A stretch of 55,458 nt of DNA from Candidatus Lachnoclostridium stercorigallinarum. GTDB taxonomy: Bacteria > Bacillota > Clostridia > Lachnospirales > Lachnospiraceae. Location: the NCBI GenBank assembly GCA_019116745.1, contig DXBC01000166.1:1-55458 (forward strand), in the 5' to 3' direction. Of this stretch, positions 10,766 to 42,459 are shown piece by piece. Under the pieces are notes generated by a model. The model saw only the letters and a program-made list of their open reading frames with translations, did not search any database and was not told the origin of the DNA. Position 1 is the first letter of the stretch. Every line of letters starts with the position of its first letter. The position numbers and the translations under genes were made by a program.

Positions 10766-11728
10766 ATGAAGAAGATCAGCGTTGTGGTGCCCTGCTACAA
10801 TGAAGAGGCCAATGTAGGCCCCCTGCGGGACGCCCTGGTAGAAATGTTTCACCGGGATCTGCCGGGATACCGGTATGAAATCCTGTTTATTGACAATGAT
10901 TCTCAGGACCGCACCCGGGAAATACTCCGGGAGCTGTGCGCCCGGGACAAGGACATCAAGGCCATATTCAATGCGAAAAATTTCGGCCAGTTCAATTCCC
11001 CCTACTACGGCATGCTGCAGACCACAGGGGACTGCACCATCCTGATGGCGGCGGATTTTCAGGATCCGGTGGAGATGATTCCCAAATATGTGAAAGAGTG
11101 GGAAAACGGCTACAGGATCGTCATTGGCATCAAGAAATCCAGCCAGGAGAATAAACTTATGTACTGGCTGCGGGGCTGCTATTACAAGCTGATCAAGAAA
11201 CTGTCGGACGTGGAGCAGATTGAACAGTTTACCGGCTTCGGTCTTTACGACAGGAAATTCATCCAGGTGCTGAGGGATCTGGACGATCCCACCCCTTTCC
11301 TGCGGGGAATTGTGGCGGAGCTGGGTTTCCGCAGAAAAGAGATTCCCTATGAACAGCCGAAGCGGAAGGCGGGAAAAACCAGCAACAATTTCTATAAGCT
11401 CTATGACGCGGCCATGCTGAGCTTTACTTCCTACACCAAGGTGGGGCTGCGCCTGGCCACCATTTTCGGCAGCATCTGTTCTGCCATCAGTATGCTGGTA
11501 GCCCTGATCTATCTGACACTGAAGCTGCTGTACTGGGACCGTTTTGCCGCCGGTATGGCGCCCCTGCTCATCGGCATGTGCTTCCTGGGATCGGTGCAGA
11601 TCTTTTTCATCGGACTGGTGGGAGAGTATGTGCTGACCATCAATTCCAGGGTGATGAGAAGGCCCCTGGTAGTGGAAGAGGAGCGGATCAATTTCCAGAA
11701 TGAGGAAGAAAACGGAGGAGACCTATGA
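10766..11728 (+). CDS. GT2 glycosyltransferase, DPM1/GtrB-like with C-terminal TM segments
   Basis: ISVVVPCYNEEANVGPL; AADFQDPVEMIPK; two C-terminal hydrophobic segments. Confidence 0.9.
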   Translation: MKKISVVVPCYNEEANVGPLRDALVEMFHRDLPGYRYEILFIDNDSQDRTREILRELCARDKDIKAIFNAKNFGQFNSPYYGMLQTTGDCTILMAADFQDPVEMIPKYVKEWENGYRIVIGIKKSSQENKLMYWLRGCYYKLIKKLSDVEQIEQFTGFGLYDRKFIQVLRDLDDPTPFLRGIVAELGFRRKEIPYEQPKRKAGKTSNNFYKLYDAAMLSFTSYTKVGLRLATIFGSICSAISMLVALIYLTLKLLYWDRFAAGMAPLLIGMCFLGSVQIFFIGLVGEYVLTINSRVMRRPLVVEEERINFQNEEENGGDL

Positions 11729-13911: not shown

Positions 13912-13913
13912 TT

Positions 13914-14918: not shown

Positions 14919-15026
14919 TAAAAAATTCATGAACCCGTAACAGAAAAACAGATATATTGTAAGAATTTGTTAATGACAGGCACCTGGGCTTCATGTATAA
15001 TAAGTAAGATATTGAGGTGATTAGCA

Positions 15027-16439: not shown

Positions 16440-16488
16440 AACCAGAAAAAAACGCCCGTGGGGCGCAGTATGCAGGAAGAGGTAAAAC

Positions 16489-18792
16489 ATGAGCCAGGAA
16501 TATGAGTATGAGGCCGGGCGCTCCAGAGCCAGGCAGAGCAGGAGACGTCCGTCCGCGGCGGAACCGCGGGCAGTACGCCGGACAGGGATGGGGATCCCTG
16601 ACGGCGCGGATAGAGAGGAAGCGGCGGCAAGACAGACCGCATATGCCCGTTCATCGGGAAATTCGCCTGCGGCGGCGAGGCGGGCTACGCCTCCGGACGC
16701 GGGACGCCGCCATGCAGGGATCGGACGAGGCAGAGAGGATGACGGGCTTCAGCTATGGAATGAGCTGGCCAGCCGCGCGTCCGCGGGCAGCCGCAGATCT
16801 GCAGGGACCGGATCGGTTTCGGGGGCAGCTGGAGGCGCCTCCGGAGTGACGAGAGCAGCGTCCGGGATGACGGGAGCTGTGAGACCGGCATCTGGAGCGA
16901 CGGGAACGGCCCCCAGAGTAGCGAGACCGGCATCTGGAGCGGCGGGAGCGGCCCCCAGAGTGACGAGACCGGCATCGGGGACGACAGGAGCAGCTTCCGG
17001 AACATCGGGAACGGCATCTGCTGACAGCGGCTTTTCCGGCGGCAGCGGAGGGGCTGGAAATGGTTCCGGCGGCGGAAACGGCTCCGGCGGCGGAGACTCA
17101 GGTTCCGGAAGACGGCGCAGAAATTCCGGTCAGAAGAAAGATATGTCACCGGAGGCAAAGCGCCGCAGAAGAATCATCAAGTTTATTGTGGCGGAGTGTT
17201 TTGCTCTGATATTTATTTTCTGCTATGCCTTTGTGGCCAGGAGATGGTCTCTGCTGCAGCGGGATGAAAGCTTCAGCGTTCAGACGGTCAAGAATGAGGA
17301 GCTGGCGGAGGAAACTCTGCAGAAGATGGAGGGCTACTGGACGGTGGCCGTGTTCGGCGTGGACAGCCGCGGAACCAATACGGGGAAAGGCGCCAACGCC
17401 GATGTGAACATGATTTTCAACATCAACAGGGATACGGGGGAGATCCGGATTGTCTCCGTGTTCCGTGATTCCTATCTGAATATTGACGACAGCGGCAGCT
17501 ACAACAAGATCAATCAGGCTTACTTTGTGGGCGGGCCCAGCCAGGCTGTAAAGGCCCTGAATAAAAACCTGGATCTGGATATTCAGGAATATGTGACGTT
17601 CAACTGGAAAGCTGTGGCGGAAGCCATTAATATTCTCGGCGGCATCGATATGGAGATCAGCCGTGCAGAGTTTTCCTACATCAACTCGTTTATTACGGAG
17701 ACTCAGAAGGTAACGGGAATTCCCACCACCCAGCTGAGCCATGCGGGTATGAATCATCTGGACGGCGTTCAGGCGGTGGCTTATGGACGTCTGCGTCTGA
17801 TGGATACGGATTTTGCCAGGACGGAGCGCCAGAGAAAGGTAATTGAGGCTGCCTTTGAGAAGGCGAAGCAGGCAGATTTTTCTGTGCTGAACAATATTAT
17901 TGTGACAGTGGCTCCCCTGGTGTCCACCAACATCGACACCGGAGATCTGGTGGAGATGGCTCAGAATATCAGCAAGTACCACATCGGCGAGACGGGAGGC
18001 TTCCCCTTCGCCAGAGGCGATGCCAATATGGGAAGAAAGGGAGCCTGCGTGATCCCGACCACCCTGGAGAGCAATGTGGTGGAGCTTCACAATTTCCTCT
18101 TTGACGATGAGGACTATACCACTACGGAACAGGTGAAGCAGATCAGCGCAAAAATTATTTCCGACACGGGACTGTCCAAAGAGGGAGAGTTTGTCTACCA
18201 TGCGGATACCAGCGGCGGAGCGGTTTACCGTCCCACTACAGAGGCCGCTACGGAGGAGACCAGCGAACAGCTGGAGACGGATGAGAATGGAAATCCCATT
18301 GAGACCAGTGAGCCGGAGACGGATGAAAATGGAAATCCCATTGAGACCAGCGAACCGGAGACAGATGAGGACGGAAATCCCATCGAAACCAGTCCCGGGG
18401 AGTCTCAGACTGACGAATTCGGCATGCTGATCCCCACGGAGAGCGGAACGGGCACAAGGCCGTCTTCCAGTGAGAGCAGCAGCGCGGGACAGGGAGAAAG
18501 CCAGAGCCGTCCGGGAAGTACAGAGAGCGGAACCCGGCCCAGCCGGCCCGGCAGTACGGATTCTGTCCGGCCATCTGCTTCTGAGGAGAGTACGGAGGCC
18601 TCCGGAGGTCCTATTATCAATTCGCCTACCAGGCCGGAGGAGACAACTGTAGACTGGAACGGCCCGGGAGGAGAGATCCGTGATCAGGTGGAGGCACCTT
18701 CTTCCACCGGCGACGGAGTGATTCTGCCTCCGTCCACCACGGCGGCGGTTTCGGAGACGTCCGCCCAGGAGCCCATCTCTCCCCTGCAGTGA
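16489..18792 (+). CDS. LytR-CpsA-Psr (LCP) family protein with long low-complexity termini
   Basis: TM IIKFIVAECFALIFIFCYAFVARR then VAVFGVDSRGTNTGKGANADVNMIFNINRDTGEIRIVSVFRDSYL, LSHAGMNHLDGVQAVAYGRLRLMDTDFARTERQRKVI. Confidence 0.92.
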   Translation: MSQEYEYEAGRSRARQSRRRPSAAEPRAVRRTGMGIPDGADREEAAARQTAYARSSGNSPAAARRATPPDAGRRHAGIGRGREDDGLQLWNELASRASAGSRRSAGTGSVSGAAGGASGVTRAASGMTGAVRPASGATGTAPRVARPASGAAGAAPRVTRPASGTTGAASGTSGTASADSGFSGGSGGAGNGSGGGNGSGGGDSGSGRRRRNSGQKKDMSPEAKRRRRIIKFIVAECFALIFIFCYAFVARRWSLLQRDESFSVQTVKNEELAEETLQKMEGYWTVAVFGVDSRGTNTGKGANADVNMIFNINRDTGEIRIVSVFRDSYLNIDDSGSYNKINQAYFVGGPSQAVKALNKNLDLDIQEYVTFNWKAVAEAINILGGIDMEISRAEFSYINSFITETQKVTGIPTTQLSHAGMNHLDGVQAVAYGRLRLMDTDFARTERQRKVIEAAFEKAKQADFSVLNNIIVTVAPLVSTNIDTGDLVEMAQNISKYHIGETGGFPFARGDANMGRKGACVIPTTLESNVVELHNFLFDDEDYTTTEQVKQISAKIISDTGLSKEGEFVYHADTSGGAVYRPTTEAATEETSEQLETDENGNPIETSEPETDENGNPIETSEPETDEDGNPIETSPGESQTDEFGMLIPTESGTGTRPSSSESSSAGQGESQSRPGSTESGTRPSRPGSTDSVRPSASEESTEASGGPIINSPTRPEETTVDWNGPGGEIRDQVEAPSSTGDGVILPPSTTAAVSETSAQEPISPLQ
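16882..17007 (+). repeat. 42-nt tandem repeat, about 3 units, in the N-terminal region of the LCP gene
   Basis: RPASGATGTAPRVA / RPASGAAGAAPRVT / RPASGTTGAASGTS. Confidence 0.8.
18274..18396 (+). repeat. 42-nt tandem repeat, about 3 units, in the C-terminal region of the LCP gene
   Basis: ETDENGNPIETSEP x2 then ETDEDGNPIETSP; DNA units gagacggatgaraatggaaatcccattgagaccag. Confidence 0.9.
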
Positions 18793-18859
18793 GAGGAAGA
18801 GTTTCGGTCCGTCATCTGACGGGTACAGCGGAAAAAGTCTGCCGGAGGGGAAAAAACTC

Positions 18860-18888
18860 TTGACATTTTATACAATGTGAGTTAGAAT
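18860..18888 (+). promoter_or_regulatory. sigma-A type promoter for the leu operon
   Basis: TTGACA (18860-18865), 17 nt spacer, TAGAAT (18883-18888). Confidence 0.75.
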
Positions 18889-18899
18889 TTTGAAAAATT

Positions 18900-19215
18900 A
18901 ATTATACGCGATGACGGGGAAAAAGCCTATCCAGGACGTGTACAGAGAGCTGCCGGGCGGTGCGAGGCAGAGATGTCGGATATGTATACTGGCCCCTGAG
19001 CACTCGGCTGAACCGCTGCCGGCTCTTTTAAGGAGAGGCAGAAGCAGTAGGCCCGAGCGGAATCCCACCGTTATCCGGGAAGCGGTTCGTAGATTTACCG
19101 ACCGTACAGAGCGGCTGTCACACAGCAATGAGAGTGGTACCGCGGGAGCTTTGAATGAATATGGCTCTCGTCTCTCAAGGGGCAATACCCTTGAGGGACG
19201 GGGGCCTTTTTGTAT
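18900..19215 (+). ncRNA. T-box leader (presumed leucine-specific)
   Basis: T-box signature aatgagagtggtaccgcgg (19127-19145) preceded by a structured leader, followed by terminator/antiterminator; upstream of leuACDB; specifier codon not resolved by eye. Confidence 0.85.
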
Positions 19216-19216
19216 C
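19163..19216 (+). terminator. T-box intrinsic terminator
   Basis: ggctctcgtctctcaaggggcaatacccttgagggacgggggccttttt. Confidence 0.85.
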
Positions 19217-19348
19217 CATCAAAAGCGGCTCCCGCCCTCTGAAAGCCCCCAGCGCTGTCCTTTACGGACGGCGGCCGGCTGCGGAATGAGCGGCTTCGGC
19301 CCGGCGCAAAAAGCCGGGCACCTATGTTCAGTAAGGAGGAAAAACGAT

Positions 19349-21004
19349 ATGATGGATGTGACAAAGTATCAGATTGGCTATTACAATCCGCCGAAGACAG
19401 AGTACCGCTGGGTGAAGAAAGATCACATTGAGAAGGCTCCGGCCTGGTGCAGTGTGGATCTGCGGGACGGCAATCAGAGTCTGGTAGTGCCTATGAATCT
19501 GGAAGAAAAACTGGAATTTTTCCGAATGCTGGTAAAAATTGGCTTTAAGGAGATCGAGGTAGGATTCCCGGCCGCCAGTGAGACGGAGTATGAGTTTCTC
19601 AGAACCCTGATTGAGAAAGACATGATTCCTGAGGATGTGACCGTACAGGTGCTGACACAGTGCAGGGATCACATCATCCGGAAAACCTTTGAGGCAGTCC
19701 AGGGGGCTCCCAGCGCAGTCATTCATTTCTACAACTCCACCAGCGTGGCTCAGAGAGAGCAGGTATTTAAAAAGAGCCGGGATGAGATCAAAAAGATTGC
19801 CACGGACGGCGCAAAGCTGGTAAAACAGCTGGCTGCCGAGTATCCCGGCAACTTCCGGTTTGAATACAGTCCGGAGAGCTTTACGGGAACAGAACCGGAA
19901 TACGCCCTTGAGGTATGCAACGAGGTGATCGAGATTATGGAGCCCACACCGGAGAAGCCCATGATCATCAACCTGCCGGTGACGGTCTCCATGAGCATGA
20001 GCCATATCTACGCCAACCAGATCGAGTATATGAGCGATAATCTGAAGCATCGAGACAGCGTGATTTTAAGCGTTCATCCCCACAACGACAGGGGCTGCGG
20101 CGTGGCAGATACGGAGCTGGCGGTGCTGGCCGGAGCGGACCGGGTGGAAGGAACCCTGTTTGGAAACGGGGAGCGGACCGGAAATGTGGACCTGATCACT
20201 CTGGCGTTAAATCTTTATACCCACGGCGTGGATCCTCACCTGGATTTCAGCGATATGCCGTCCATTGTGGAGACTTACGAGCGGGTGACCCGGATGCACG
20301 TATATGAGAGAACGCCCTACGCGGGAGCGCTGGTATATGCGGCCTTCAGCGGAAGCCATCAGGATGCCATCGCAAAGGGTATGACCTGGAGAAAGGAGCA
20401 CAACCTCCACCAGTGGAATGTGCCCTACATCCCCATCGATCCCGCCGATATCGGCCGCACCTACGACGGCGATGTGATCCGCATCAACAGCCAGAGCGGC
20501 AAAGGCGGCATCGGCTTCCTTCTGGAGCAGAAGTACGGCTTTGTTCTTCCGCCGAAGATGCGGGAACACTTCGGATATGCGGTCAAATCCGTTTCCGACC
20601 ATGCCCACAAGGAGCTGCAGCCGGAGGAGGTGCTGGAGGTGTTCCGCACCACTTATCTCAACAGGAGAGAGCCGGTGGATGTGACCAACCTTCATTTTGT
20701 GCAGAACGGTGCGATTACCGCCACCGTGACAGTCCGGACGGAGGACGGATCCCAGATGGAGGTGACTGCCAAAGGAAACGGCCGTCTGGATGCGGTGTGC
20801 AACGCGGTAAAGATCGCCACAGGATGGGATTTCACCATTATGACATACTCCGAGCACAGCATGGAGCACGGCTCTACCAGTGAGGCCGCCTCATACGTGG
20901 GCCTTCAGTGGGGAGACGGTTCCGTCACCTGGGGAGCGGGAACAGATACGGATATTATCCGCGCCGGTATCAAGGCCATGATCAGCGCGGTAAACAATAA
21001 ATGA
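19349..21004 (+). CDS. leuA: 2-isopropylmalate synthase
   Basis: gtaaggagga SD, ATG 19349; [64 protein letters not shown]. Confidence 0.94.
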
Positions 21005-21029
21005 AAGGACAGAGGGGACAGAGAGCATT

Positions 21030-22289
21030 ATGGGAATGACAATGACGCAGAAAATTCTGGCAGCCCATGCAGGGCTTGAATATGTGGAGGCAGGACAGTT
21101 AATCAACGCCCGCCTGGACGAGGTGCTGGGAAATGATATCACCACGCCGGTAGCTATCAACGAGTTTAAGAAAGCAGGGTTTGACAGGGTATTTGACAAT
21201 ACCCGCATCAACATTGTGCTGGATCACTTTGTACCAAACAAGGACATCAAGGCGGCGGAACAGTCCAAACAGTGCCGGGAGTTTGCGAACCAGTACGGAA
21301 TCGTCAATTTCTTTGACGTGGGAGAGATGGGAGTAGAGCACGCCCTCCTTCCGGAGAAAGGAATTGTCACCGCGGGCGACTGCATTATCGGAGCAGACAG
21401 CCACACCTGTACCTACGGGGCCCTGGGAGCCTTCTCCACAGGGGTGGGGAGCACGGATATGGCGGCAGGCATGGCCACCGGCCAGTGCTGGTTTAAGGTG
21501 CCGGCGGCCATCCGCGTGGTGCTGACAGGAAAGCTGCAGCCGGCGGTGAGCGGAAAGGACCTGATTCTTCACCTGATCGGAAAGATCGGCGTGGACGGCG
21601 CTCTCTATAAGAGCCTGGAATTTACCGGGCCGGGAGTGGCCTCCCTGTCCATGGACGACCGGTTGAGCGTCTGCAATATGGCCATTGAGGCGGGAGCGAA
21701 AAACGGCATTTTCCCGGTGGATGAGACCACCATCGCCTATCTCACCGGACGGAGCCAGAGGCCCTGGACCGTGTACGAGGCGGATGAGGACGCTTCCTAC
21801 GAGCAGACCATTGAGATCTGTCTGGATGAGCTGGAACCCACCGTTTCCTGGCCCCATCTGCCGGAGAATACAAAGGCGGCTTCCCAGGGCAGGGAAGTGA
21901 AGATCGACCAGGTAGTGATCGGAAGCTGCACCAACGGCCGTCTGGAGGACATGGAAGCGGCCTGGAAGATTTTAAAGGGAAAGCATGTGGCAAAGGGCGT
22001 GCGGGTAATCATTATCCCTGCTACCATGGCCGTTTACCGGGAGTGCCTGGTGAGGGGCTGGACCACTGATTTTGTGGACGCCGGCTGCGTGGTTTCCACT
22101 CCTACCTGCGGTCCGTGCCTGGGCGGCTATATGGGAATTCTGGCGGAGGGAGAGCGGTGCGTCTCCACCACCAACCGGAACTTTGTAGGCCGTATGGGCC
22201 ATGTAAAGAGCGAGGTTTATCTGGCCAGCCCGGCTACGGCGGCAGCCAGCGCCATCACCGGCTATATCACCGACCCGCGGACCATCTGA
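21030..22289 (+). CDS. leuC: 3-isopropylmalate dehydratase large subunit
   Basis: aconitase-family motifs [55 protein letters not shown]. Confidence 0.95.
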
Positions 22290-22377
22290 CCGTGGAATGG
22301 CCGGGGCGGGAAGACGTAAGGCGGCCCCATTCCCGGCGCAGAGAAATCAATTACAGAGAAAGGCAGGAAAATCTTTT

Positions 22378-22860
22378 ATGGAAGCAACAGGATTTGTACA
22401 TAAATACCCGGACAACGTGGATACGGATGTAATCATTCCGGCCCGCTATTTAAACACTCCCGATGCAAAAGAGCTGGCGGCTCACTGCATGGAAGATATT
22501 GATCCGGAGTTTATCCACAGGGTGAAGCAGGGAGATATTATTGTCGGCGGCGCCAACTTCGGCTGCGGCTCCAGCAGGGAGCACGCTCCCCTGGCCATCA
22601 AGACGGCGGGAGTGTCCTGCGTGATTGCGGCTACCTTTGCCAGGATATTCTACCGGAATGCCATCAACATCGGCCTTCCCATTCTGGAGTGTCCGGCGGC
22701 CAGCGCCGCCATCCAGGCGGGAGACCGGGTGAAGGTGGATTTTGACACCGGCGTGATCACCGATGAGACCACGGGAGAGACCTTTAAGGCCCAGCCGTTT
22801 CCGCCCTTTATTCAGAATATCATTGCCGCGGGCGGCCTGATGAAGAGTATTGAAAAGTAG
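22378..22860 (+). CDS. leuD: 3-isopropylmalate dehydratase small subunit
   Basis: [33 protein letters not shown]. Confidence 0.95.
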
Positions 22861-22875
22861 GGAGGAGACGACACA

Positions 22876-23946
22876 GTGGAAAAGCAGATTGCAGTGATCA
22901 GGGGAGACGGAATCGGCCCGGAGATTGTGGAGCAGGCGCTGCGGGTGCTGGACGCCGTGGCGGAAAAATTCGGCCACACATTCCGGTATGTGGATGCGGA
23001 TATGGGCGGGATCGCCATTGACCGCTGGGGAGAAGCTCTCCCGGCGGCGGAACTGGAAAAATGCCTGGCTTCCGACAGCGTGCTTCTGGGCGCCGTGGGC
23101 GGCCCCAAATGGGACGGGATGCCGGGGAACAAGCGGCCGGAGAAAGGGCTTCTGGCTCTCCGGTCAGCCATGGGGCTTTATTCCAACAACCGCCCCGCAA
23201 AGCTCTGGCCTCAGCTGGCGGCAGCCAGCCCTTTAAAGCCGGAGATTGTGGAAAAGGGGATTGATTTTATCGTAGTGCGGGAGCTGATCGGCGGCGTGTA
23301 TTTCGGAGAGCACCGGACGGAAGAGGCGGACGGAGAGCTGAAGGCCACCGATGTGATGAGCTATTCGGAGCATGAGATTGAGCGGATCGGGCGGATCGCC
23401 TTTGAGACGGCGGGAAAGCGGAGGAAAAAGGTGACCAGCATTGACAAGGCCAATGTGCTGGACACCAGCCGGCTCTGGAGAAGAGTGATGCACCGGCTGG
23501 CTTCAGAGTATCCGGATATTGAGTATTCCGATATGCTGGTGGACAACGCGGCTATGCAGATTGCAAAAGATCCCAGTCAGTTTGATGTGATTGTGACGGA
23601 GAACATGTTCGGGGATATTCTCTCCGACGAGGCCAGCATGATTACCGGCTCCATCGGCATGATTCCATCCTCCAGCCTGGGAGAGGACAGCCGGGGGCTT
23701 TACGAGCCCATTCACGGTTCCGCACCGGATATTGCCGGCCAGGACAGGGCCAATCCCATCGGCACTATTCTGTCTGCGGCCATGATGTTAAAGTACAGCT
23801 TTGACATGGACGAGGAGGCAGAGGCCATTGAAAAAGCGGTGAATCAGGTTCTGGACGAGGGACTGCGCACCGGCGATATGATGGCAGAGGGCAGCACTCC
23901 CGTCAGCTGCTCAGGGATGGGGGACGCCGTCCTGAAGTATATCTAG
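22876..23946 (+). CDS. leuB: 3-isopropylmalate dehydrogenase
   Basis: GTG start; IAVIRGDGIGPEIVEQALRVLDAV; GLYEPIHGSAPDIAGQDRANPIGTILSAAMML. Confidence 0.95.
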   Translation: MEKQIAVIRGDGIGPEIVEQALRVLDAVAEKFGHTFRYVDADMGGIAIDRWGEALPAAELEKCLASDSVLLGAVGGPKWDGMPGNKRPEKGLLALRSAMGLYSNNRPAKLWPQLAAASPLKPEIVEKGIDFIVVRELIGGVYFGEHRTEEADGELKATDVMSYSEHEIERIGRIAFETAGKRRKKVTSIDKANVLDTSRLWRRVMHRLASEYPDIEYSDMLVDNAAMQIAKDPSQFDVIVTENMFGDILSDEASMITGSIGMIPSSSLGEDSRGLYEPIHGSAPDIAGQDRANPIGTILSAAMMLKYSFDMDEEAEAIEKAVNQVLDEGLRTGDMMAEGSTPVSCSGMGDAVLKYI

Positions 23947-31871: not shown

Positions 31872-32891
31872 TCAGTCCAGAGCGGCCAGAATGGCGTCCA
31901 CCGCTTCCTCCTTTGTGGCCCAGGAGGTGACCAGGCGGATGGCCTGGTGGCTCTCATCCATGCGGGCCTGGATATTGAAGGAGAAGTCTTTGGACAGCCT
32001 GGCAATTGTCTCATCGGAGAAGATGGGGAAAAGCTGGTTGCTCACAGACCGGGAGTAGAAGGAAACGCCCTTCTTTTCCAGCCCCTTTCTCAGCTTATCC
32101 GCCATGGCCGTGGCGTGGGACGCCATCTCGTAGAACAGACCGTCGGTGAACAGGGTCTCAAACTGGATTCCCAGCAGCCAGCCCTTGGCCAGCATTCCGC
32201 CTCTCTGTTTGATCATGTAGCGGAAATCTTCGTCCAGGACCGGATTCATGATCACCACCGCCTCGCCGAACAGGGCTCCGTTTTTGGTGCCGCCGATGTA
32301 GAAGACGTCGGTGAGGGACGCAATGTCCGCCATGGTCAGGTCGTTGGCGCTGCTGGTAAGAGCAGCTCCCAGACGGGCGCCGTCCAGGAACAGAAACAGG
32401 CCGTTTGCGCGGCAGATGCGGGAGAGTGCCTCCAGCTCAGCTTTTGTGTACTGGGTGCCGATCTCCGTGGTGTTGGAGATGTATACCATCTTCGGCTTTA
32501 CCATGTGCTCATCGGGATGGGCATCCAGAATCTCCTGGATCATGGCCGGAGTCACCTTGCCGTCCGGGGACGGGAGAGAAAGGACCTTGTGGCCGGTGGC
32601 TTCCACCGCTCCGGTCTCGTGAACATTGATGTGTCCGGTGGAGGCGCAGATCACGGCCTCATGGGGGCGAAGGGCCGCGGCGATCACTGTAAGGTTGACC
32701 TGGGTGCCTCCAACCAGGAAGTGGACGGCGGCGTTCTCACGGCCGGTTTCCTTCCGGATCAGGTCCCTGGCCCGGCCGCAGTGGTCTTCGTCCATGCCGT
32801 AGCCGGTATGCTGAATGAGATTGGTCTCCATGAGGGCCTTTAAAATCTGTGGATGGGCGCCCTCGCTGTAGTCGTTGGTAAAGCTGTACAT
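31872..32891 (-). CDS. PLP-dependent threonine aldolase family (beta-eliminating lyase)
   Basis: YSFTNDYSEGAHPQILKALMETN; HINVHETGAVEATGHKVL; FLFLDGARLGAAL; FYIGGTKNGALFGEAVV; ATG at 32891 preferred over the longer ORF. Confidence 0.9.
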   Translation of the reverse strand: MYSFTNDYSEGAHPQILKALMETNLIQHTGYGMDEDHCGRARDLIRKETGRENAAVHFLVGGTQVNLTVIAAALRPHEAVICASTGHINVHETGAVEATGHKVLSLPSPDGKVTPAMIQEILDAHPDEHMVKPKMVYISNTTEIGTQYTKAELEALSRICRANGLFLFLDGARLGAALTSSANDLTMADIASLTDVFYIGGTKNGALFGEAVVIMNPVLDEDFRYMIKQRGGMLAKGWLLGIQFETLFTDGLFYEMASHATAMADKLRKGLEKKGVSFYSRSVSNQLFPIFSDETIARLSKDFSFNIQARMDESHQAIRLVTSWATKEEAVDAILAALD

Positions 32892-33129
32892 AGTGGTGTT
32901 CCTCCCTTGCGTTTGTTCAGTATACATCATCATAGCGCAAACGGGGGAAAAAGTCCAGACCGGAGAGGACGCCTGTCCCGGAGAGACTTCCACTTACGAA
33001 AACCCATTTTCAGTATACCAGTTTTACGTTATATATGATAGAATCATAATAATCAGAACCGGCAGAAGAAAGGGGAGCAGCCCGGCAAGGCAGCATGAAG
33101 TCGGAACGCGTACGGGAGAGGGTAAAATT

Positions 33130-34266
33130 ATGAAAGAGTTATACAGGACGGAGATATCCGGCGGCAACATGGATTTTCTCATGGGAGAGGAGCACACCCC
33201 CAGGCAGATGGTGGAGTTTTTAAATTCCGGAGCGGTGTTTCGGGGATTTGACGACGTGATAAAAAGGCTGTACCCCGGGGAAGATCTGGGAGAGAGACTG
33301 ACGGCCGGCATGGAGAGACTGACGGGAGAAAGCCATGAGAGCACGGCCAGAAAGGTGAGAAACTGGCTGAACGGCCGCAGTGTGCCCCGGGGCCGCGAGA
33401 CCCTGTTTCAGATGTGCTTTGCGCTGGGGCTGGATGAAGCGCGGGCGTCCAGGCTTCTGGGGGCGGCTGACGGAATGGGAATCCATTACAGGGATCCGGA
33501 GGAACTGGTCTACGCCTACGCCCTGAGAACGGGCAGATCCTATGAGGAGGCGCAGAAACTGAAGAAGGACGCGGAAGAGATCTGCAGGGAAAGGCCGGCG
33601 GAGAGGCGGGAGGAAGAGCCGGCCTATACCAGGCGGATTCAGGAAGCTTTTTTAAGAGTGAGGACCGACGGAGAACTGATGGACTTTTTCCGGGAAAACG
33701 GGGGGAATCTGGGAAAGCTTCATGAGACGGCGTACCGCAAATTCGCGGAGCTCCTGGAGATCCTGCGCAGACCGGAAGGAGAGCGGGACAAGGCCGGACC
33801 GGCGGGCGAGGAGGAGCGGGCCTATACTATGGAAGAAATCGTCTTCCATTATCTGGGCATGAACGTTCCGGAAGGAAGGAAACTGGAGGAGATGACTCCT
33901 CTTCAGAAGCTGGTAAAAAAATACTGGCCCAATGAGAGCAGTCTGGTCAATATGAAGAACCGGAAAGAGGATGTAAGCCGGAAAGTGATGATCCTTCTCT
34001 ATCTGATCATTGAGAGCTACAACGAGGAAGACTGGGAAGAGGACCTGGAGGAAGAACCGGAAGATGGGGATACCAGGCTGGAGATCCGTCTGGAAAAGCT
34101 GAATCTGTTCCTGGACGCTTACGGCATGAGCCTTCTGGATCCGGGGAACGCCTTTGATCTGCTGGTCCTTTACGCCATGCGGGCGGAGGAAATGGGCGAG
34201 CAGATGGAACTGGTGCTGGATGAGCTTTACATGGGCAGGGGACGGCGGAAAAAAGTTGAAAAATAA
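33130..34266 (+). CDS. uncharacterised protein with HTH (XRE)-like segment, first gene of the kinase-NACHT cassette
   Basis: ESTARKVRNWLNGRSVPRGRETLFQMCFALGLDEARASRLLGAADGMGIHYRDPEELVYAYAL; highly charged C-terminal half. Confidence 0.7.
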   Translation: MKELYRTEISGGNMDFLMGEEHTPRQMVEFLNSGAVFRGFDDVIKRLYPGEDLGERLTAGMERLTGESHESTARKVRNWLNGRSVPRGRETLFQMCFALGLDEARASRLLGAADGMGIHYRDPEELVYAYALRTGRSYEEAQKLKKDAEEICRERPAERREEEPAYTRRIQEAFLRVRTDGELMDFFRENGGNLGKLHETAYRKFAELLEILRRPEGERDKAGPAGEEERAYTMEEIVFHYLGMNVPEGRKLEEMTPLQKLVKKYWPNESSLVNMKNRKEDVSRKVMILLYLIIESYNEEDWEEDLEEEPEDGDTRLEIRLEKLNLFLDAYGMSLLDPGNAFDLLVLYAMRAEEMGEQMELVLDELYMGRGRRKKVEK

Positions 34267-34332
34267 GGGCGGATTTCCGGTTATGATGGAAGCAGCCGGA
34301 TAAAAAATTCCGTGACAGAAGGAGGTGGACGG

Positions 34333-37300
34333 ATGGAAAACAGAGTGTTCAGGGCGGCCGGAGAGATTCTGCCCCTGGGCGGTGTGGATTACCGCCTGGA
34401 AGGAGTGGAAGGGTTTGGGGGCAGTTCTGTGGTCTACCGGGCCGCCTATGAGGATGGGCTGAACCGGGGATCTTTCCATCAGGTGCTGATACGGGAACTG
34501 TTTCCCTATGACAGGACCGGGGCCATATATCGGAATGACCGGGGAGAGATCTGCTGCCGCCAGGAAGGAAGAGAACGGATGGATGCCTGCCGCCGGGGAC
34601 TGATCCGGGGGAATCAGGCCAATCTGGAACTGCTGGAACAGCTTCCGGAGCAGACGGCGGGGAACCTGAATTCCTTCGAGGCGTACGGCACATATTACAC
34701 CGTGCTGACGGTTCACGGCGGAGCAACTCTGGAACGGCTGCTGGAGAAAGAACAGGGATATTTTGATCTGAGGCAGGCGGCCTGCATATGTCTGCAGATC
34801 CTGGAGGCCCTGGAGGCGTTTCACCGGAGGGGGCTGCTGCACCTGGATATCAGCCCGGATAATATCCTGGTGCTGAAGGAAAGAGCACTGCTCATCGACT
34901 ACGGCAGCGTGCTGTACCTGGACGACGCCTGGAAAAGAGGATTGACCCTGAGCGTGAAGGAGGGGTATACGGCTCCTGAGGTAAGGCTGAGAGAGATCGG
35001 CCAGATCGGTCCGGCCTCCGATCTGTTTGGCGTGTGTGCCGTGTTTTTCCGGATGATTGCCGGCCGAAGGCTGACGGTGGAAGACCTCACGGGAGCCGGA
35101 CCGGGGCGCGGGCTCGCCGAAGGAGCGCCCGGAATGGAGACTGCGCCGGAGACAGCCCGGTGGAAGGGAAAGCAGATTGCGGCGAAAGGGCTCCATGTAC
35201 TGGCCCGGAAGCGGTATCAGTCGGTGGGAGAGCTGAAGGAAGAATTTGAAGAGCTGATCCGCAGAATCGACGGCCTGGGAGTTTCTCAAGGCGCAGTCTG
35301 GGAGTGCGGCCGCCGCAGGCTGCGCCAGATGGCCGGGGAAGAAACGTTTCTGGAACGGCGTCTGAGAAGGCTGGACGGGAAGGACGCCGTGGAGCAGCCG
35401 GATACGAAAGACGCCGTGGAGAGGCTGGATACGGCCTCCTGTCTGGTAAGGCTGAAGGCAGGGGAACATTTTCTTATTTCCGGTCCCGGAGGAATGGGCA
35501 AGAGCCGGTTTGTCACAGAGCTTGCCATGATGGGAACAAAGAAGTACAGTCCGAAGGAACCGGCGCCGGTGTATCTGTCTCTGGCTGATTATCCGGAATG
35601 GGGGCATCCTTATGATTATATCAGGGCCAGCCTGTTAAGCGGACTCAGTCCGGAGCGGCCGGAGGAAACGGGCGGGGAGAGGGAATTGAGGACGGCTGCG
35701 GCGAAAACGTCCCCCTGGGACGCCGCCGCAGCAGCCCTGGAAGAGATCTTTGACAGGGAACCGGAACAGGGGGGCGGGATTCTGCTTCTGCTGGACGGTT
35801 TGAATGAGGCGGGAAACAGAACGGAAGGGCTGATCCGGGAGATCGAAGAGCTGGGACGCCGGCCGGGAGTGAGGATTCTGGTGACGGACCGGACGGATTC
35901 GGTAAAGGAGTATGGGCTGAGAGATTTTTCTTCCTGGGAACTTCTGCCGCTGGAGAGGGAGCAGGTAACCAGACGGCTGAAAGAAGAGCAGATCATTCTG
36001 GAAGACGGGGAGGAGCGGGAAGGGATGGTTCAGCTGCTGGCCAATCCCATGATGCTCTCCCTTTACTGCCGGACGGCCCGGATGGACCGGGAAGCCAGGG
36101 GCGGCCAGGATGGCCGTGAGGAGGGAAATCGCCGGCCGGATCAGGATAATGGAGAGCAGCCCCGGGAGATGGACGGCGGCCGCCTCCCGAAGACTATGGA
36201 TGAGATGGCGGGCCGTTATCTGGAACAGGTTTATCTCCGTCAGATGCGGGCAGACTCCGGCAGTCGGGGAGCCCAGCTGGCCCACGGCTATGTGCTTTGC
36301 CATGTTCTGCCGGCGGCCGCCCTGGAAATGAAGCGGCGGGGGCGTTCCGTCCTGACCTTTCAGGAACTGTTTGATCTGGCGGGGGCAAGCTTCCGTCAGG
36401 TCAGAACCAGGGAGTTTGCCCTGGCTTTCCCGGAATACGCCGGAAAGTCCCGGCTTATGATGGAGACCATCGGGAATGAGGGAGAGTGGTTCGACTATGC
36501 GGTCTCGGAACAGCTGACGGAACGGCTGGGACTTTTAATAAAAAGCCGGCAGGGAAATTACCGGCTGATCCATGACAATTTCATGGGATATCTGGCGGGC
36601 AGAGGGGAGGAGAACCGCAGGAAGCTGTCACGGGTCCGCCGGGCAGATTTAAAAAAGAAAGGGAGAGGAGCGGCGATTGCCCTCTGCTTTCTGGCGGCGG
36701 CCGGAGCGGCGGCTGTCCGGCTGTCCGGCGCAGGAGGGTTTTCCGGGGAGGAAAAACGGGTTATGAAAAATGCGGCCCAGCGCCTGCTCATCAATATGCA
36801 GCTGCTGGATCTGCAGATCGCCGGTCAGGAACAGATCCTGGAGGAAGCGTCGACGGAGGAGGTGCTTGGCGGAGAGGAATCCGGCTGCAGGTTTTTGAGC
36901 GAGATGATCCGGCGCAAAAGGGAGGAGCAGGCCCATTACCAGCTGATGGCAGGGGACGGAAAACAGTGGCTGGAGGAACTGGAGCGGCTGGAAACGGAGA
37001 TTCCGCTGGATGTGCTGGGGGAGCTTTACGGAATGCCGGCTGAGATGGACGCCATGACGGAAGAGGCTATGGATCACCTGGAGCGCAGCCTCTGCGATCC
37101 GGAGAGTCCCTATCGGACCAGAGAGCAGAGGGAACCCATTGTGGAGGCTTACGGCGGATATCTGGACGCCTGCGCGGACGTCTGCTATCTGAAGCTGGGT
37201 CAGGCCGTGTCGGAGATGGATGAAGAGAGCGCGGATCTGGTTCTGGACGGGGTGGCGGAGATGGCGGTTTTCAAGGACGTGATGCTGAATTATCCGCTGG

Positions 37301-37419
37301 AGCCGGAAAAAGAAGAGCGGGAGAGACTTCTCAGGGCTGCGGAAAACAGACTGGAAGATGCCGGAGGAATCATGAGGCAGCAGAATTTTCCCATGGAATC
37401 CCAGGGATGGGAGAGTTAG
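34333..37419 (+). CDS. protein kinase domain - NACHT/STAND-like NTPase - TM - helical C-terminal domain fusion
   Basis: ggaggtgg SD; kinase G-loop GFGGSSVVY, catalytic HLDISPDNIL, LIDYGS, EGYTAPEV; Walker A FLISGPGGMGKSRFV (35482-35505) and Walker B GGILLLLDGLNEAG; TM GRGAAIALCFLAAAGAAAVRLSG. Confidence 0.85.
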   Translation: MENRVFRAAGEILPLGGVDYRLEGVEGFGGSSVVYRAAYEDGLNRGSFHQVLIRELFPYDRTGAIYRNDRGEICCRQEGRERMDACRRGLIRGNQANLELLEQLPEQTAGNLNSFEAYGTYYTVLTVHGGATLERLLEKEQGYFDLRQAACICLQILEALEAFHRRGLLHLDISPDNILVLKERALLIDYGSVLYLDDAWKRGLTLSVKEGYTAPEVRLREIGQIGPASDLFGVCAVFFRMIAGRRLTVEDLTGAGPGRGLAEGAPGMETAPETARWKGKQIAAKGLHVLARKRYQSVGELKEEFEELIRRIDGLGVSQGAVWECGRRRLRQMAGEETFLERRLRRLDGKDAVEQPDTKDAVERLDTASCLVRLKAGEHFLISGPGGMGKSRFVTELAMMGTKKYSPKEPAPVYLSLADYPEWGHPYDYIRASLLSGLSPERPEETGGERELRTAAAKTSPWDAAAAALEEIFDREPEQGGGILLLLDGLNEAGNRTEGLIREIEELGRRPGVRILVTDRTDSVKEYGLRDFSSWELLPLEREQVTRRLKEEQIILEDGEEREGMVQLLANPMMLSLYCRTARMDREARGGQDGREEGNRRPDQDNGEQPREMDGGRLPKTMDEMAGRYLEQVYLRQMRADSGSRGAQLAHGYVLCHVLPAAALEMKRRGRSVLTFQELFDLAGASFRQVRTREFALAFPEYAGKSRLMMETIGNEGEWFDYAVSEQLTERLGLLIKSRQGNYRLIHDNFMGYLAGRGEENRRKLSRVRRADLKKKGRGAAIALCFLAAAGAAAVRLSGAGGFSGEEKRVMKNAAQRLLINMQLLDLQIAGQEQILEEASTEEVLGGEESGCRFLSEMIRRKREEQAHYQLMAGDGKQWLEELERLETEIPLDVLGELYGMPAEMDAMTEEAMDHLERSLCDPESPYRTREQREPIVEAYGGYLDACADVCYLKLGQAVSEMDEESADLVLDGVAEMAVFKDVMLNYPLEPEKEERERLLRAAENRLEDAGGIMRQQNFPMESQGWES

Positions 37420-37441
37420 AAGGCGGAGGAGGAGAAGAAAC

Positions 37442-38224
37442 ATGGAAAAACGTGGATGTCGGGGCGGAACGGCGGTCTGGAAGCTGACGGCGCTGTCGTT
37501 GGGACTGGCGGCTGCCGTCTCCGCTTCAGGCTGCAGCGGCGGCAGAGACGTCGGGTACCGGAAACTGGTGGACGATTTCGCCGCGGTTACCCTGGCGCAG
37601 GATCAGGACAGCGCGGCATATGATCAGGCACTGGCGGCGGTGGGAGCCTATCTGGAAGATTCTGGAGAGGAAACCCTGTCTGCGGCCCGCAGGGCGGTGA
37701 CGGAGACAAGGATTCAGATGGAGGAAGACGGGGCGGCCCTGACTCCCTATGAACTGGATGAGGATCTGGCGGCGGTTCTGGAAGACTACGGTTTGGATCC
37801 GGAGGAGTATGTCATCAACGCGGATATGAGGGCGGGGTATCTCTCCGGATATGCGGAAAGCCTGAAAAATCTGGAATTTTATCTGGAACACGAGTCGGCA
37901 GACCAGGAGAGCGTCACAAGACCTGCGCTGGAATTTCTCTATGATTTCCGCAGAGATTATCAGGAGTGCACCAGGGGATTTTGTTTTTACGGGATTAATT
38001 ACTGGTTTGCCGGCTGGGAAGGAGAGGCTCTGGATTATGTCAGGAGCCAGGTGACGGACCGCCTCCGGTCCTTTGTCACGGAAGAGTCGGTGTGGGAGGA
38101 CAGTCGGGAAGGAGTGGAAAGAAAGCTGGATCTTTATCTGAGGCGGATGGAGGAGTGCCAGCAGGAGTTTCAGGAATACCTGGGGGAGGCCCAGGAGGAT
38201 CTGTACCGGCTGGAACAGGAGTAA
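37442..38224 (+). CDS. predicted lipoprotein, helical
   Basis: signal with lipobox LTALSLGLAAAVSASGCSGG; follows the kinase-NACHT gene by 22 nt with aggaggagaagaaac SD. Confidence 0.8.
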   Translation: MEKRGCRGGTAVWKLTALSLGLAAAVSASGCSGGRDVGYRKLVDDFAAVTLAQDQDSAAYDQALAAVGAYLEDSGEETLSAARRAVTETRIQMEEDGAALTPYELDEDLAAVLEDYGLDPEEYVINADMRAGYLSGYAESLKNLEFYLEHESADQESVTRPALEFLYDFRRDYQECTRGFCFYGINYWFAGWEGEALDYVRSQVTDRLRSFVTEESVWEDSREGVERKLDLYLRRMEECQQEFQEYLGEAQEDLYRLEQE

Positions 38225-38268
38225 GGCGGAAGGGACGGCCCTGAAAAAGGGACGGAAAGACAGAGAAT

Positions 38269-38317
38269 GCAAAGGACAGAGATGGGATCGTGGGGGATCC
38301 TCTCTCTGTCCTTTTCC
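38269..38317. terminator. terminator at the end of the kinase-NACHT cassette
   Basis: aaaggacagagatgggatcgtgggggatcctctctctgtccttttcc hairpin. Confidence 0.8.
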
Positions 38318-38336
38318 GTATGAGGCGAAAACATTT

Positions 38337-38663
38337 TTAATTCAGTTTTCTGCCCAGCCCCTTCATAAAGGCCAGGGCCAGCTCCTGATCTTTTGCAGGC
38401 AGGGAGGTAAACAGCGACAGACACTGGCGCTGGTTTTCAGTCAGTCCCCTCTGATTCCGGCCGGGCTCAAAGAATTCGGCCATGGAAATGCCGAATCCCT
38501 GACACAGCTTCTGAAGAGTGGGAAGGGACGGCATATTTTCTTTGTGCAACATGGTATTTAATGTGGAGTAGGGGATTCCGGAGGCTTTGGAGAGCTGGTA
38601 ATAAGACCAGTTCCTTTCGGTACAGAGTCCGCGGATGCGCTCCAGTGGATTGAAGTCTTTCAT
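38337..38663 (-). CDS. XRE-family HTH transcriptional regulator
   Basis: MKDFNPLERIRGLCTERNWSYYQLSKASGIPYSTLNTMLHKENMPSLPTLQKLCQGFGISMAEFFE. Confidence 0.88.
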   Translation of the reverse strand: MKDFNPLERIRGLCTERNWSYYQLSKASGIPYSTLNTMLHKENMPSLPTLQKLCQGFGISMAEFFEPGRNQRGLTENQRQCLSLFTSLPAKDQELALAFMKGLGRKLN

Positions 38664-38840
38664 GAGAAACCTCGCTGCGGTATATCTTATGTCTGCTCTC
38701 ATCATAACTGAATCTTATGGAATAGTACAGATACTAATATACGGCATAATAATAACGGAAAAACGTGATACAGGCGGAAAAAAGTTGCAGGAAACAGAAA
38801 CGGCGTCTGATAGGATTTATCATAAAGAAGGGGGAATGCC

Positions 38841-39221
38841 ATGGGAAGAAGAGGAAGGAAGCTGATCATCGAGGCGGTGGAGGGCAGCGGCAGAAGCTGC
38901 AGAAAGCTGGGGCTGTATTTTTTCAGAATGAGACAGCGGCCGGGACGGAAGGAACTGGCACTGCGCTGCCTGAGACGGGCGGCACAGCTGGGAGATGAGA
39001 TGGGATACCTTCTGTATCACCGGCTGACTCACAGAGGCAGAAAAGTGATCGACGACCGTTCCTACAGACAGATGGCTGCGGAGTACGGCGGCCTGCTTCC
39101 GGGCGCGGAAAAGCGGCGGCTGAGACAGTATCTGCTGCTGGGAACAGACAGGCAGAAGGCTTTCTGGAAAGCGGAAGAAAAACGGGCGTCTGTCCGGCAC
39201 AGAAGAACGATAAGACGTTGA
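38841..39221 (+). CDS. small, very basic hypothetical protein (126 aa)
   Basis: ORF with upstream aaagaaggggg SD-like sequence; Arg/Lys-rich. Confidence 0.55.
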   Translation: MGRRGRKLIIEAVEGSGRSCRKLGLYFFRMRQRPGRKELALRCLRRAAQLGDEMGYLLYHRLTHRGRKVIDDRSYRQMAAEYGGLLPGAEKRRLRQYLLLGTDRQKAFWKAEEKRASVRHRRTIRR

Positions 39222-39310
39222 AATTAAGACGGAAAAACGTTATAATGAGTACCAACGGGAAACCATCTGAATTCAGACATCGCGGCAGAGCCGCGGGACA
39301 GGAGGAGCGT

Positions 39311-40504
39311 ATGAAAATGTTAAAAAAAGCGGCAGGCATGATTCTGACATCGGCAGTTATGCTGGGAATGGCGGCGACGGCGTTTGGGGCGGGAAATATG
39401 CCTACAGCGGTTGACGGAACAAAAGGAGTAAAGACCTCGGAAAATTTTGAAAATCTTTTCGATGGGAGCGTGGGTACAAAATGGTGCGTGGCAAAGACGG
39501 ATCCCTATGTGATCTTCAGCCTTCCGTCCCAGCAGTCTGTCACCGGCTACACCCTTGTGACAGCCAATGACAGCCTCCAGTGGAAGGGCAGGAATCCCAA
39601 ATCCTGGACTCTTTACGGATGCAATTCCGCCGCAGTGCCTGGAGTGGACGACAGCGGATGGACGGTGATCGACTCCGTGACGGAGGACGAGACCATGAAA
39701 AACCAGAACAGCACGGCCTATGAATTTGCCCTGGATCAGCCGGCTCCGGCTTATCAGTATTACAAATTCCAGGTGGAAGAAAAGGGGCTGACCATGCAGC
39801 TTTCCGAGCTGATTCTGGAGTATGGGGGAAGCAGCCAGGCGGTACAGCAGATGGTGGACGGGGCAAACGGCATCAATAACGGAGAAGGGCCGGATCGCAT
39901 GCTGGACGGAAAAGCCTCTACCAAATGGTGTACGATAAACAGCGAGCCCTGGATCATTGTGGAGATGACAACTCCGGTGTCGGCAAAGGGCTATTATATG
40001 GTGACCGGCAATGACAGCAGCCGGTATAAGGGCAGGAATCCCAAATCCTGGACTCTTTACGGATGCAACGCCGATACGGCTCCTGATGAGAATTACGGCG
40101 GATGGGAGGTCGTGCATCAGGTAACGGACGACACTGCCATGGAAGACCGGAACGCGGCTTCTTATTACTTTGCCCTGGGTCAGGCCAGTCCTGCATACCG
40201 GTACTATATGCTTCAAATTGAAGAAAAGCAATCCTCTATGATGCAGCTTTCCGAGTTTGCCATTGACTATGAAGGCCTTACGTTCGGATATACGGGACTG
40301 AACGGAACGACTTCCACGGAGAGTTCCGAAAGCTCCGGCGGCGTGTCCGGTCCTCTTATGTGCGGTTCCTGCGCGGGCAGAGGAAGTAATCACTGTTTTG
40401 TATGCCAGGGAAGCGGAATAAGCGGCGGAGAACAATGCGATAACTGCGGCGGAACGGGAGAGGTCAGATGTACCGCCTGCAACGGCACCGGCTGGATTCA
40501 GTAA
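39311..40504 (+). CDS. secreted protein with two F5/8 type C (discoidin)-like domains and C-terminal DnaJ-type zinc-finger motifs
   Basis: signal peptide MKMLKKAAGMILTSAVMLGMAATAFGA; two copies of YxGRNPKSWTLYGCN; C-term CGSCAGRG/CFVCQGSG/CDNCGGTG/CTACNGTG. Confidence 0.82.
   Translation: MKMLKKAAGMILTSAVMLGMAATAFGAGNMPTAVDGTKGVKTSENFENLFDGSVGTKWCVAKTDPYVIFSLPSQQSVTGYTLVTANDSLQWKGRNPKSWTLYGCNSAAVPGVDDSGWTVIDSVTEDETMKNQNSTAYEFALDQPAPAYQYYKFQVEEKGLTMQLSELILEYGGSSQAVQQMVDGANGINNGEGPDRMLDGKASTKWCTINSEPWIIVEMTTPVSAKGYYMVTGNDSSRYKGRNPKSWTLYGCNADTAPDENYGGWEVVHQVTDDTAMEDRNAASYYFALGQASPAYRYYMLQIEEKQSSMMQLSEFAIDYEGLTFGYTGLNGTTSTESSESSGGVSGPLMCGSCAGRGSNHCFVCQGSGISGGEQCDNCGGTGEVRCTACNGTGWIQ
39584..40068 (+). 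repeat. pair of identical 41-nt direct repeats within the discoidin gene (39584-39624 and 40028-40068)
   Basis: aagggcaggaatcccaaatcctggactctttacggatgcaa at both places. Confidence 0.95.
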
Positions 40505-41212: not shown

Positions 41213-42448
41213 TTATGCGGCAACTACAGAAACTTCACAGCCAAGTGCTTTTAACTTTTTAAGGTACGCATTAATCTTGCGTTCCCTATTGAACTGATTG
41301 TAATAATCCGCTCCCAGATCATTGAAAACGACTCCATCCTTCAGAATGTGATAGATGGCAACCAGCATGGAATGGGCCACAGCGACATAAGCCCGTTTCT
41401 TTCCCCGATGGGCGCTGATCCTTGCAAACTGCGCAGAAAAGTAACTGGTCTTATTCTTCACCGCTGCATGGGCACAAACAACCAGTGTGTCCCGCAGCAG
41501 TGCATTTCCCTTCGTGGTCCTTCCAGACTTTCGCTTATGCGCACTTTCATTACTCCCAGGACACAGACCCGCCCATGAAGACAGGTGGGCATCGGTGGGG
41601 AAACGTTCCATGTCAGTTCCGATAACCGAGATGATCGCCTGTGCACCGGTGTTCCCAATACCTGGGATGTCCTGTATCACTTCAGCGGCTCTTTTCTCTT
41701 CGGGCTTCATGAAATTGTCAATGTCATCATCCAGCTCTCGGATATGGGCGTTCAGTTCATCCAGATGGTTCAGGAGGATACGCATCATCTTCTTTTGAAG
41801 GTCAGACATTACCCCATTAAGATCATCAATGATCTGTTCCTTTGTGGCCTTCAGATTGTGTGCGATGACTTTCTGCTGATAAAGAATGTCATACTCAGCA
41901 GAATCAATCTTTTTGCCTGACAGAATATGCTCTAAGATGTTCCGGGCACTCTTGCCATTGATATCCGTGATCGTTCCGGAAAGTTTAATATTGGCTCCTT
42001 CCAGCATCTTCTGAAGCCGGTTGAGCTCCCGGTTGCGTTCCCCAACGAGACTTTTGCGATAACGGACGAGTTCCCGCAGTTCCCTCTGATCCCTGTTCGG
42101 AATGTAACTTGCGGTAAGCAGTCCGTGCTGCAGAAGGTCCGCAATCCATTCCGCGTCTTTTACATCCGTCTTGCGTCCCGGAACGGCTTTCATGTGCCGT
42201 GCATTAACGACGATCACGTCCAGTTCGCAAACTTCAAGGATGTTGTACAAAGGCTTCCAATAAGATGACGTACTCTCCATGGCGATCATTTCACAGCCGC
42301 CCTCTTTGAGCCAGTCAGCCATTTCCAGAAGCTCTCTGGTTGTCGCGCCAAAGTCACGTATTTCCTGCCTGTTGCCTTGTTTAAAGCAGGCTACGATTAA
42401 CTTTTTATGCACATCAATACCACAACACTTGTCGTAAACTCGATCCAT
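41213..42448 (-). CDS. IS110 family transposase (DEDD/RuvC-like N-terminus, Transposase_20 C-terminus)
   Basis: MDRVYDKCCGIDVHKKLIVACFKQG; RAAEVIQDIPGIGNTGAQAIISVIGTDMERFPTDAHLSSWAGLCPGSNESAHKRKSGRTTKGNALLR; ggaggtg SD upstream of ATG 42448. Confidence 0.95.
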   Translation of the reverse strand: MDRVYDKCCGIDVHKKLIVACFKQGNRQEIRDFGATTRELLEMADWLKEGGCEMIAMESTSSYWKPLYNILEVCELDVIVVNARHMKAVPGRKTDVKDAEWIADLLQHGLLTASYIPNRDQRELRELVRYRKSLVGERNRELNRLQKMLEGANIKLSGTITDINGKSARNILEHILSGKKIDSAEYDILYQQKVIAHNLKATKEQIIDDLNGVMSDLQKKMMRILLNHLDELNAHIRELDDDIDNFMKPEEKRAAEVIQDIPGIGNTGAQAIISVIGTDMERFPTDAHLSSWAGLCPGSNESAHKRKSGRTTKGNALLRDTLVVCAHAAVKNKTSYFSAQFARISAHRGKKRAYVAVAHSMLVAIYHILKDGVVFNDLGADYYNQFNRERKINAYLKKLKALGCEVSVVAA

Positions 42449-42459
42449 AAATGGCACCT

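Follow-up and report, generated by a model that had tools for sequence, protein, structure and literature searches.

A cassette of three genes, here called P1, P2, and P3, was analyzed in a 55,458-nucleotide stretch of Candidatus Lachnoclostridium stercorigallinarum (contig DXBC01000166.1, positions 1 to 55,458 of the forward strand; the whole stretch is referred to below as the window). The source is a Lachnospiraceae metagenome-assembled genome (G000) of 2.5 Mb in 191 contigs, which is 81% complete. The genes lie on the same strand and encode a helical protein related to XRE regulators (P1), a fusion of a kinase domain, a NACHT module, a transmembrane helix, and an ectodomain (P2), and a lipoprotein (P3); the coordinates are collected in Table 1. 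P1 and P2 are separated by 66 bp and P2 and P3 by 22 bp. A consensus scan of the region for promoters found 3 sites, compared to 1.9 expected by chance, and the element CCAGTTTTACG...GATA(A/G)AATCATAATAA upstream of the cassette was also found in the sister locus L122 (genome G781) and was missing from sites that lack the cassette. A single operon would fit these data because the spacing is tight and the promoter-like site is kept, together with its surroundings, in the sister locus. The initial annotation of this DNA, made from the sequence without database searches, had described three tightly spaced co-directional genes closed by a terminator, and this layout was borne out by the open reading frames, the gaps, and the hairpin (z about -4.3). 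An antisense open reading frame at 33652-35607 was rejected as a gene because codon usage favors the sense frames, which are also under purifying selection; it was considered to be a by-product of high GC content.

Table 1. Coordinates of the cassette and its features in the window.
Feature	Coordinates	Strand	Basis and remarks
Stretch missing from empty sites	32960..38336		Lacking in G776 (L127) and G777 (L128); same place in G781 (L122)
Candidate promoter TTTACG-16-CATAAT	33023..33050	+	5' of P1; consensus scan
P1	33130..34266	+	378 aa; kinase-associated; probably two degenerate XRE-type units; without a Pfam family
P1 N-terminal unit	33307..33579	+	About residues 60-150; short XRE relatives, prob 98.7, E 1.9e-16
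P1 C-terminal unit	33892..34224	+	About residues 255-365; short XRE relatives, prob 89, E 2.2e-6
P2	34333..37419	+	1028 aa; kinase-NACHT-transmembrane-ectodomain; alternative in-frame GTG start at 34312 possible
Kinase domain	34375..35277	+	About residues 15-315; Pkinase match and alignments
CGG codon, Arg54 at beta-3 lysine position	34492..34494	+	Kinase alignment
Catalytic loop HLDISPDN	34840..34863	+	Residues 170-177; alignment
NACHT module (nucleotide-binding domain, helical and winged-helix parts)	35440..36612	+	About residues 370-760; Pfam, Foldseek
Walker A GPGGMGKS	35482..35505	+	Sequence
Walker B LLLLDGLNE	35782..35808	+	Alignment
Transmembrane helix	36667..36723	+	About residues 779-797; hydropathy 1.91; follows winged helix
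Helical ectodomain, predicted extracytoplasmic	36733..37416	+	Alignment; remote homology to P3
P3	37442..38224	+	260-aa lipoprotein, Cys31
Hairpin and short U-run, probable terminator	38267..38321	+	Folding -30.8 kcal/mol, z -4.31; followed by UUUUCC

The whole cassette is a clean presence/absence unit. It is flanked by a threonine-aldolase-like gene (31872-32993) and an XRE gene (38337-38705), as it is in G781, and in G776 and G777 about 40-50 bp separate the two neighbors, compared to 5.4 kb in the window. The aldolase protein of the window is 95% identical to that of G776, 90% to that of G777, and 85% to that of G781. Two other genomes, G059 and G369, were unusable as empty sites due to rearranged flanks, and G776 and G777 were used instead. 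P1 is carried by two of the nine genomes of the genus. Between the window and L122, the proteins are 77% (P1), 67% (P2), and 66% (P3) identical, whereas most neighboring proteins are 82-93% identical, with Rrf2 and an F5/8 type C gene at 71-72%. The corresponding ratios of nonsynonymous to synonymous substitution rates (dN/dS) were 0.13, 0.21, and 0.22 for P1, P2, and P3, respectively, and are rough because dS was near or above 1 and hence close to saturation. These comparisons indicate a cassette that is constrained by purifying selection but fast-diverging. A mobile element was rejected as its carrier, since no phage or plasmid match was found for P1 and inspection of the empty-site junctions by eye revealed no flanking repeat.

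The N-terminal part of P2 matched the Hanks-type Pfam profile Pkinase with an E-value of 6.9e-16 (58.9 bits, cut-off 31.7), in agreement with the Ser/Thr kinase-like domain of the initial annotation. The catalytic loop (HxD...N, as HLDISPDN) and the metal-binding Asp of the DFG motif (as DYG) are intact. The family as a whole has DYN, DFN, or DFD instead of DFG, and its alpha-C Glu is not fixed. The motifs read earlier were therefore correct, but it had been overlooked that the beta-3 Lys (VAIK) is replaced by Arg54 in the window; Lys is present in the other 26 aligned kinases and in L122, and as judged from this alignment Arg54 is a derived change. Matches to PD-T4-6, Mad6, and MkoA returned by PADLOC were confined to the generic kinase part (for PD-T4-6, about residues 84-322 of P2 rather than the whole protein), and membership in those systems was rejected. 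It is conceivable, though not probable, that the kinase domain of the window copy is a pseudokinase scaffold that only binds the partner and leaves the activity to the NACHT module and P1. Arg54, DYG in place of DYN, and the lack of a clear alpha-C Glu would agree with such a role, as would the mostly inactive kinase domains of related conflict systems (Kaur et al. 2020, PMC7159879); however, the intact catalytic loop and metal-binding Asp argue against it, as does the kinase-domain dN/dS of 0.21 between the window and L122, which, being pairwise, does not distinguish one lineage from the other.

The central part of P2 has both the sequence profile of a NACHT module and its fold, consisting of a nucleotide-binding domain, a helical domain, and a winged-helix domain. 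Walker A and Walker B motifs are present and are both conserved in the seven NACHT-bearing homologues, with GxGG(M/S)GK(S/T) or a similar sequence as Walker A in all of them. The Pfam NACHT profile was matched by six of seven homologues (best E-value 3.6e-12), while the window P2 scored 26.3 bits against a cut-off of 26.7. An AlphaFold model of residues 325-1028 (mean pLDDT 78.5) was compared using Foldseek, and the best matches were NLRC4, NOD2, and NLRP3 (E-values from 3.4e-7, prob 1.00). The P-loop NTPase of the NACHT/STAND type, the transmembrane helix, and the helical C-terminal region that had been proposed earlier were thus recovered, and structure prediction together with Pfam supported a NACHT fold as well as a kinase fold. 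The strongly basic stretch RRKLSRVRRADLKKKGRG precedes the transmembrane helix; because of it, the last 230 residues of P2 are predicted by the positive-inside rule to be extracytoplasmic (N-in/C-out).

P3 has a signal peptide with a lipobox (ASG-C31), which agrees with the earlier description of the downstream partner as a lipoprotein. The homologues have LAGC, LSGC, MAGC, or TAGC at this position as judged by eye, and a lipobox was found in six of seven aligned proteins (the window, L007, L018, L020, L021, and L022; not L019). A P3 profile search of 397 genomes of the family identified six genomes, which are exactly those with an ectodomain kinase, and each copy lies inside a cassette. The P2 ectodomain and P3 were aligned by hhalign with an E-value of 1.6e-4 (prob 50), and the hidden Markov model of the ectodomain matched P3 at 6e-4; this remote likeness suggests a duplicated sensor pair. 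In a family search, neither P3 nor the ectodomain matched a known solute-binding or peptidoglycan-binding family. This result speaks against a nutrient or cell-wall sensing unit outside any conflict role, comparable to PknG-GlnX-GlnH or the PASTA kinases, for which NACHT, NB-ARC, and TIR modules would also be unusual in the case of simple nutrient sensing. Such a unit is only a tentative alternative, in keeping with the presence of a lipoprotein and an ectodomain, with the housekeeping and surface-related genes around the cassette, and with the Ig-like ectodomains (Big-type by eye) of the kinase relatives L024-L026.

The gene order P1-P2-P3 was kept in six loci: the window, L007 (a Hungatella metagenome-assembled genome), L018, L019, L020, and L122. 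A lack of consistent partners among homologues of the fusion would have counted against the initial annotation, and the gene neighborhoods revealed consistent ones. P2 homologues were found in 10 of the 397 genomes at E<=1e-40. Two variants were identified. In L021, P1 and P3 accompany a kinase with a transmembrane helix and an ectodomain but no NACHT module; the module was probably lost secondarily, since the kinase tree (support 97/92) and the P1 tree (99/98) both place L021 within the clade that bears NACHT. In L022, P2 and P3 are present and P1 is reversed and convergent. In that locus (about 9190-19944, minus strand), the P2-P3 homologues appear to share their direction and close spacing with a dynamin-like (LeoA-like) gene and a gene for a large HerA/FtsK-like ATPase, and these genes possibly form a larger conflict operon.

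P1 itself matched no Pfam family, including those of the helix-turn-helix type. The most plausible reading is a pair of degenerate XRE-type units, because a profile of short XRE-type relatives aligned to both of them; the two units aligned to each other with an E-value of 1.4e-4 (prob 53). Two short P1 relatives located beside plain kinases passed helix-turn-helix profiles (L098, HTH_26, 24.9 bits, cut-off 22; L106, HTH_3, 26 bits, cut-off 23). The helix-turn-helix character assigned to this partner in the initial annotation therefore holds for the relatives and was not detected by Pfam in P1, whose identity is amended here to a duplicated XRE-like family that also accompanies many other kinases. 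The AlphaFold model of P1 is all-helical (pLDDT 81). Weak fold matches to XRE-type proteins (HigA2, DdrO, and TP901-1 CI) are suggestive only, and matches to fumarase and citrate synthase (TM-score about 0.1) were rejected as noise. A T-x-I-S motif near the N-terminus is conserved in close relatives and may be a phosphosite.

The P1 profile identified 38 of the 397 family genomes at E<=1e-6 and 15 of 391 genomes in the class sample. Association with kinases was counted in 39 loci that were reached through P1 alone. A kinase gene adjoins P1 in 26 of these and lies within three genes in 30, whereas chance would give roughly 0.4% and 1.3%, respectively, based on a background of 150 kinases in about 71 Mb. 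The relative orientation of P1 and the kinase is variable (same strand, divergent, or convergent). The rear modules of the kinases also vary and range from the NACHT-transmembrane-ectodomain arrangement to a transmembrane helix only: NB-ARC with or without TPR was found in L065, L066, L067, L068, L071, L072, L074, and L081, a transmembrane helix with another ectodomain in L024, L025, L026, and L062, and TIR-WD40 in L078. The main clades of the kinase-domain tree and the P1 tree are in common, which indicates that P1 co-diverges with the kinase through changes of the rear modules. The kinase-TIR-WD40 fusion of L078 (5172-8831, plus strand; ThsB_TIR E-value 1.4e-10) is divergent from its P1 homologue. 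Rows of kinase, PP2C (by eye), and P1-relative genes were seen at L073:6871-8097 and L105:6086-7315, where the P1 relatives begin with the motifs DFEQTV and DFDQTI, which by eye resemble the phospho-threonine sites of GarA-type substrates. In L079 (329-7518), a P1 relative lies directly 3' of Wadjet jetBCD with no kinase nearby. The genome of the window also has a kinase gene row (L028, G000:C5:1-18841) in which the kinases start with zinc-ribbon-like motifs and which includes PP2C-like genes and genes for other proteins that are secreted or unknown; similar rows hold several P1 relatives in other loci.

The interpretation considered moderately probable is that the cassette encodes a one-receptor switch that signals across the membrane. 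An outside cue would be sensed by P3 together with the P2 ectodomain related to it, and the signal would pass via the single transmembrane helix to the NACHT NTPase, a nucleotide-gated and probably oligomerizing switch. The kinase domain would then act on, or through, the co-encoded P1, whose output would most likely be altered transcription; in the window copy, the kinase may serve as a scaffold or have reduced activity owing to Arg54. The membrane-linked surveillance or signaling system suggested at the outset thus remains the best reading and is partly supported, with its trigger and output being predictions. Several observations weigh against this switch. Because Arg replaces the catalytic beta-3 Lys, the window kinase may be weak, dead, or a scaffold, and ordinary catalysis is less likely for this copy. 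The homology between P3 and the ectodomain is weak, and the absence of NACHT from L021 means that this module is dispensable and not essential to the core. The fold search with P1 gave no significant PDB match, and DNA binding by P1 is a prediction.

The closest working analogies to the proposed switch are PknG and PknK, and the cassette belongs to neither family. PknG is activated through the lipoprotein GlnH and the transmembrane protein GlnX and phosphorylates GarA/OdhI (PMC8546545). This actinobacterial system likewise forms a functional set from a lipoprotein sensor, a transmembrane protein, a kinase, and a soluble effector, but in the cassette the transmembrane part is fused to the kinase through NACHT, the ectodomain and lipoprotein are unrelated and match no known family, and P1 is not an FHA protein; homology to the sensor and effector parts of the system was not found. 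The mycobacterial STAND kinase PknK phosphorylates the regulator VirS (PMC9045387) and, like P2, joins a kinase to a STAND NTPase, with a transcription regulator as substrate, a role that P1 may share. Unlike PknK, the cassette has a transmembrane helix and an ectodomain after the NACHT module, a lipoprotein, and a duplicated XRE-like partner rather than VirS; the NB-ARC-TPR relatives (L065-L074) look closer to the PknK layout. Bacterial NLR-related defense proteins such as bNACHT25 (PMC12169576) have the same order of an N-terminal functional domain, a central NACHT, and a C-terminal sensor, with an NLR-like fold, whereas in P2 a kinase replaces the nuclease, the transmembrane helix would place the C-terminal part outside, dedicated partners are present, and a defense role is putative. 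The kinase-kinase-phosphatase (KKP) module of Pf prophages is likewise a Ser/Thr kinase module and has been linked to phage defense; as far as the available part of that report describes it, KKP is prophage-borne and has no STAND module, transmembrane ectodomain, or lipoprotein (PMC11341870). The ternary conflict systems with kinases described by Kaur et al. (2020) likewise combine kinase and STAND modules, often with damaged kinase active sites, but rest on vWA/MoxR components and are mostly actinobacterial; the cassette showed no vWA or MoxR.

Neither kinase-STAND fusions nor bacterial NACHT proteins are new. A search of open-licence papers did not find the P1 family or its association with kinases, a membrane-spanning NACHT version, or the paired lipoprotein, nor did it find a kinase-XRE-STAND operon in Lachnospiraceae, which is weak evidence of novelty. 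The usual view of bacterial STAND and NACHT proteins is that they sense in the cytoplasm and have effectors that kill. If the proposed arrangement is true, a NACHT module with a kinase on one side and a membrane-spanning ectodomain on the other, together with a dedicated lipoprotein, would be a surface-facing bacterial NLR-like receptor. The P1 family, which follows kinases across Clostridia through changes of sensor and STAND module, provides a handle on the missing output step, and the natural pairs (G776 and G777 versus G781 and the window) and the natural Lys-to-Arg change make the system directly testable. Speculatively, the cassette could represent an undescribed modular class of NLR-like kinases, with a kinase-P1 core and interchangeable STAND and sensor modules, in which a membrane NACHT receptor with a lipoprotein co-receptor acts as an alarm for immunity or envelope damage.

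An anti-phage or conflict system of the bacterial NLR-like type, in which infection or envelope damage would cause NACHT oligomerization and the kinase arm, acting via P1, would shut down either the phage or the cell, seems unlikely. The NLR-like fold of the NACHT module, the patchy distribution and clean empty sites, the NB-ARC-TPR and TIR-WD40 modules of P1-linked kinases, and cassette proteins that diverge about twice as fast as most neighbors (67% compared to 82-93% identity, with Rrf2 similar at 71%) would be consistent with such a role. Defense genes also lie by some relatives (Wadjet JetBCD in L079, a methyltransferase and Vsr in L062, and LeoA/HerA-like genes in L022), but these neighbors were chosen visually with no control, and only L022 belongs to the window-type cassettes. 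None were noticed in the gene lists around the window, L007, L018, L019, L020, and L122, for which no systematic defense scan was made. Furthermore, the cassette has no toxin or nuclease effector, the confinement of the PADLOC matches to the generic kinase part and the absence of phage and plasmid copies of P1 weigh against it, and P1 relatives also occur in ordinary kinase/PP2C clusters. The anti-phage possibility raised in the initial annotation is thus hinted at by members of the wider family and by L022 rather than by the window-type cassettes.

Three other features of the window lie outside the cassette. An IS110-family transposase gene (41213-42457, minus strand; DEDD_Tnp_IS110 and Transposase_20) is located 3 kb 3' of the cassette and is not part of it, and the aligned empty-site genomes have no stretch homologous to this region. 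A gene whose product looks secreted and matches F5/8 type C and DUF5000 (39218-40504, plus strand) is missing in G776 and G777 and present in G781, which is the same pattern as that of the cassette. A long co-directional gene run at 4343-23946 (plus strand) resembles those for surface-polysaccharide synthesis and includes a LytR-CpsA-Psr protein at 16489-18792.

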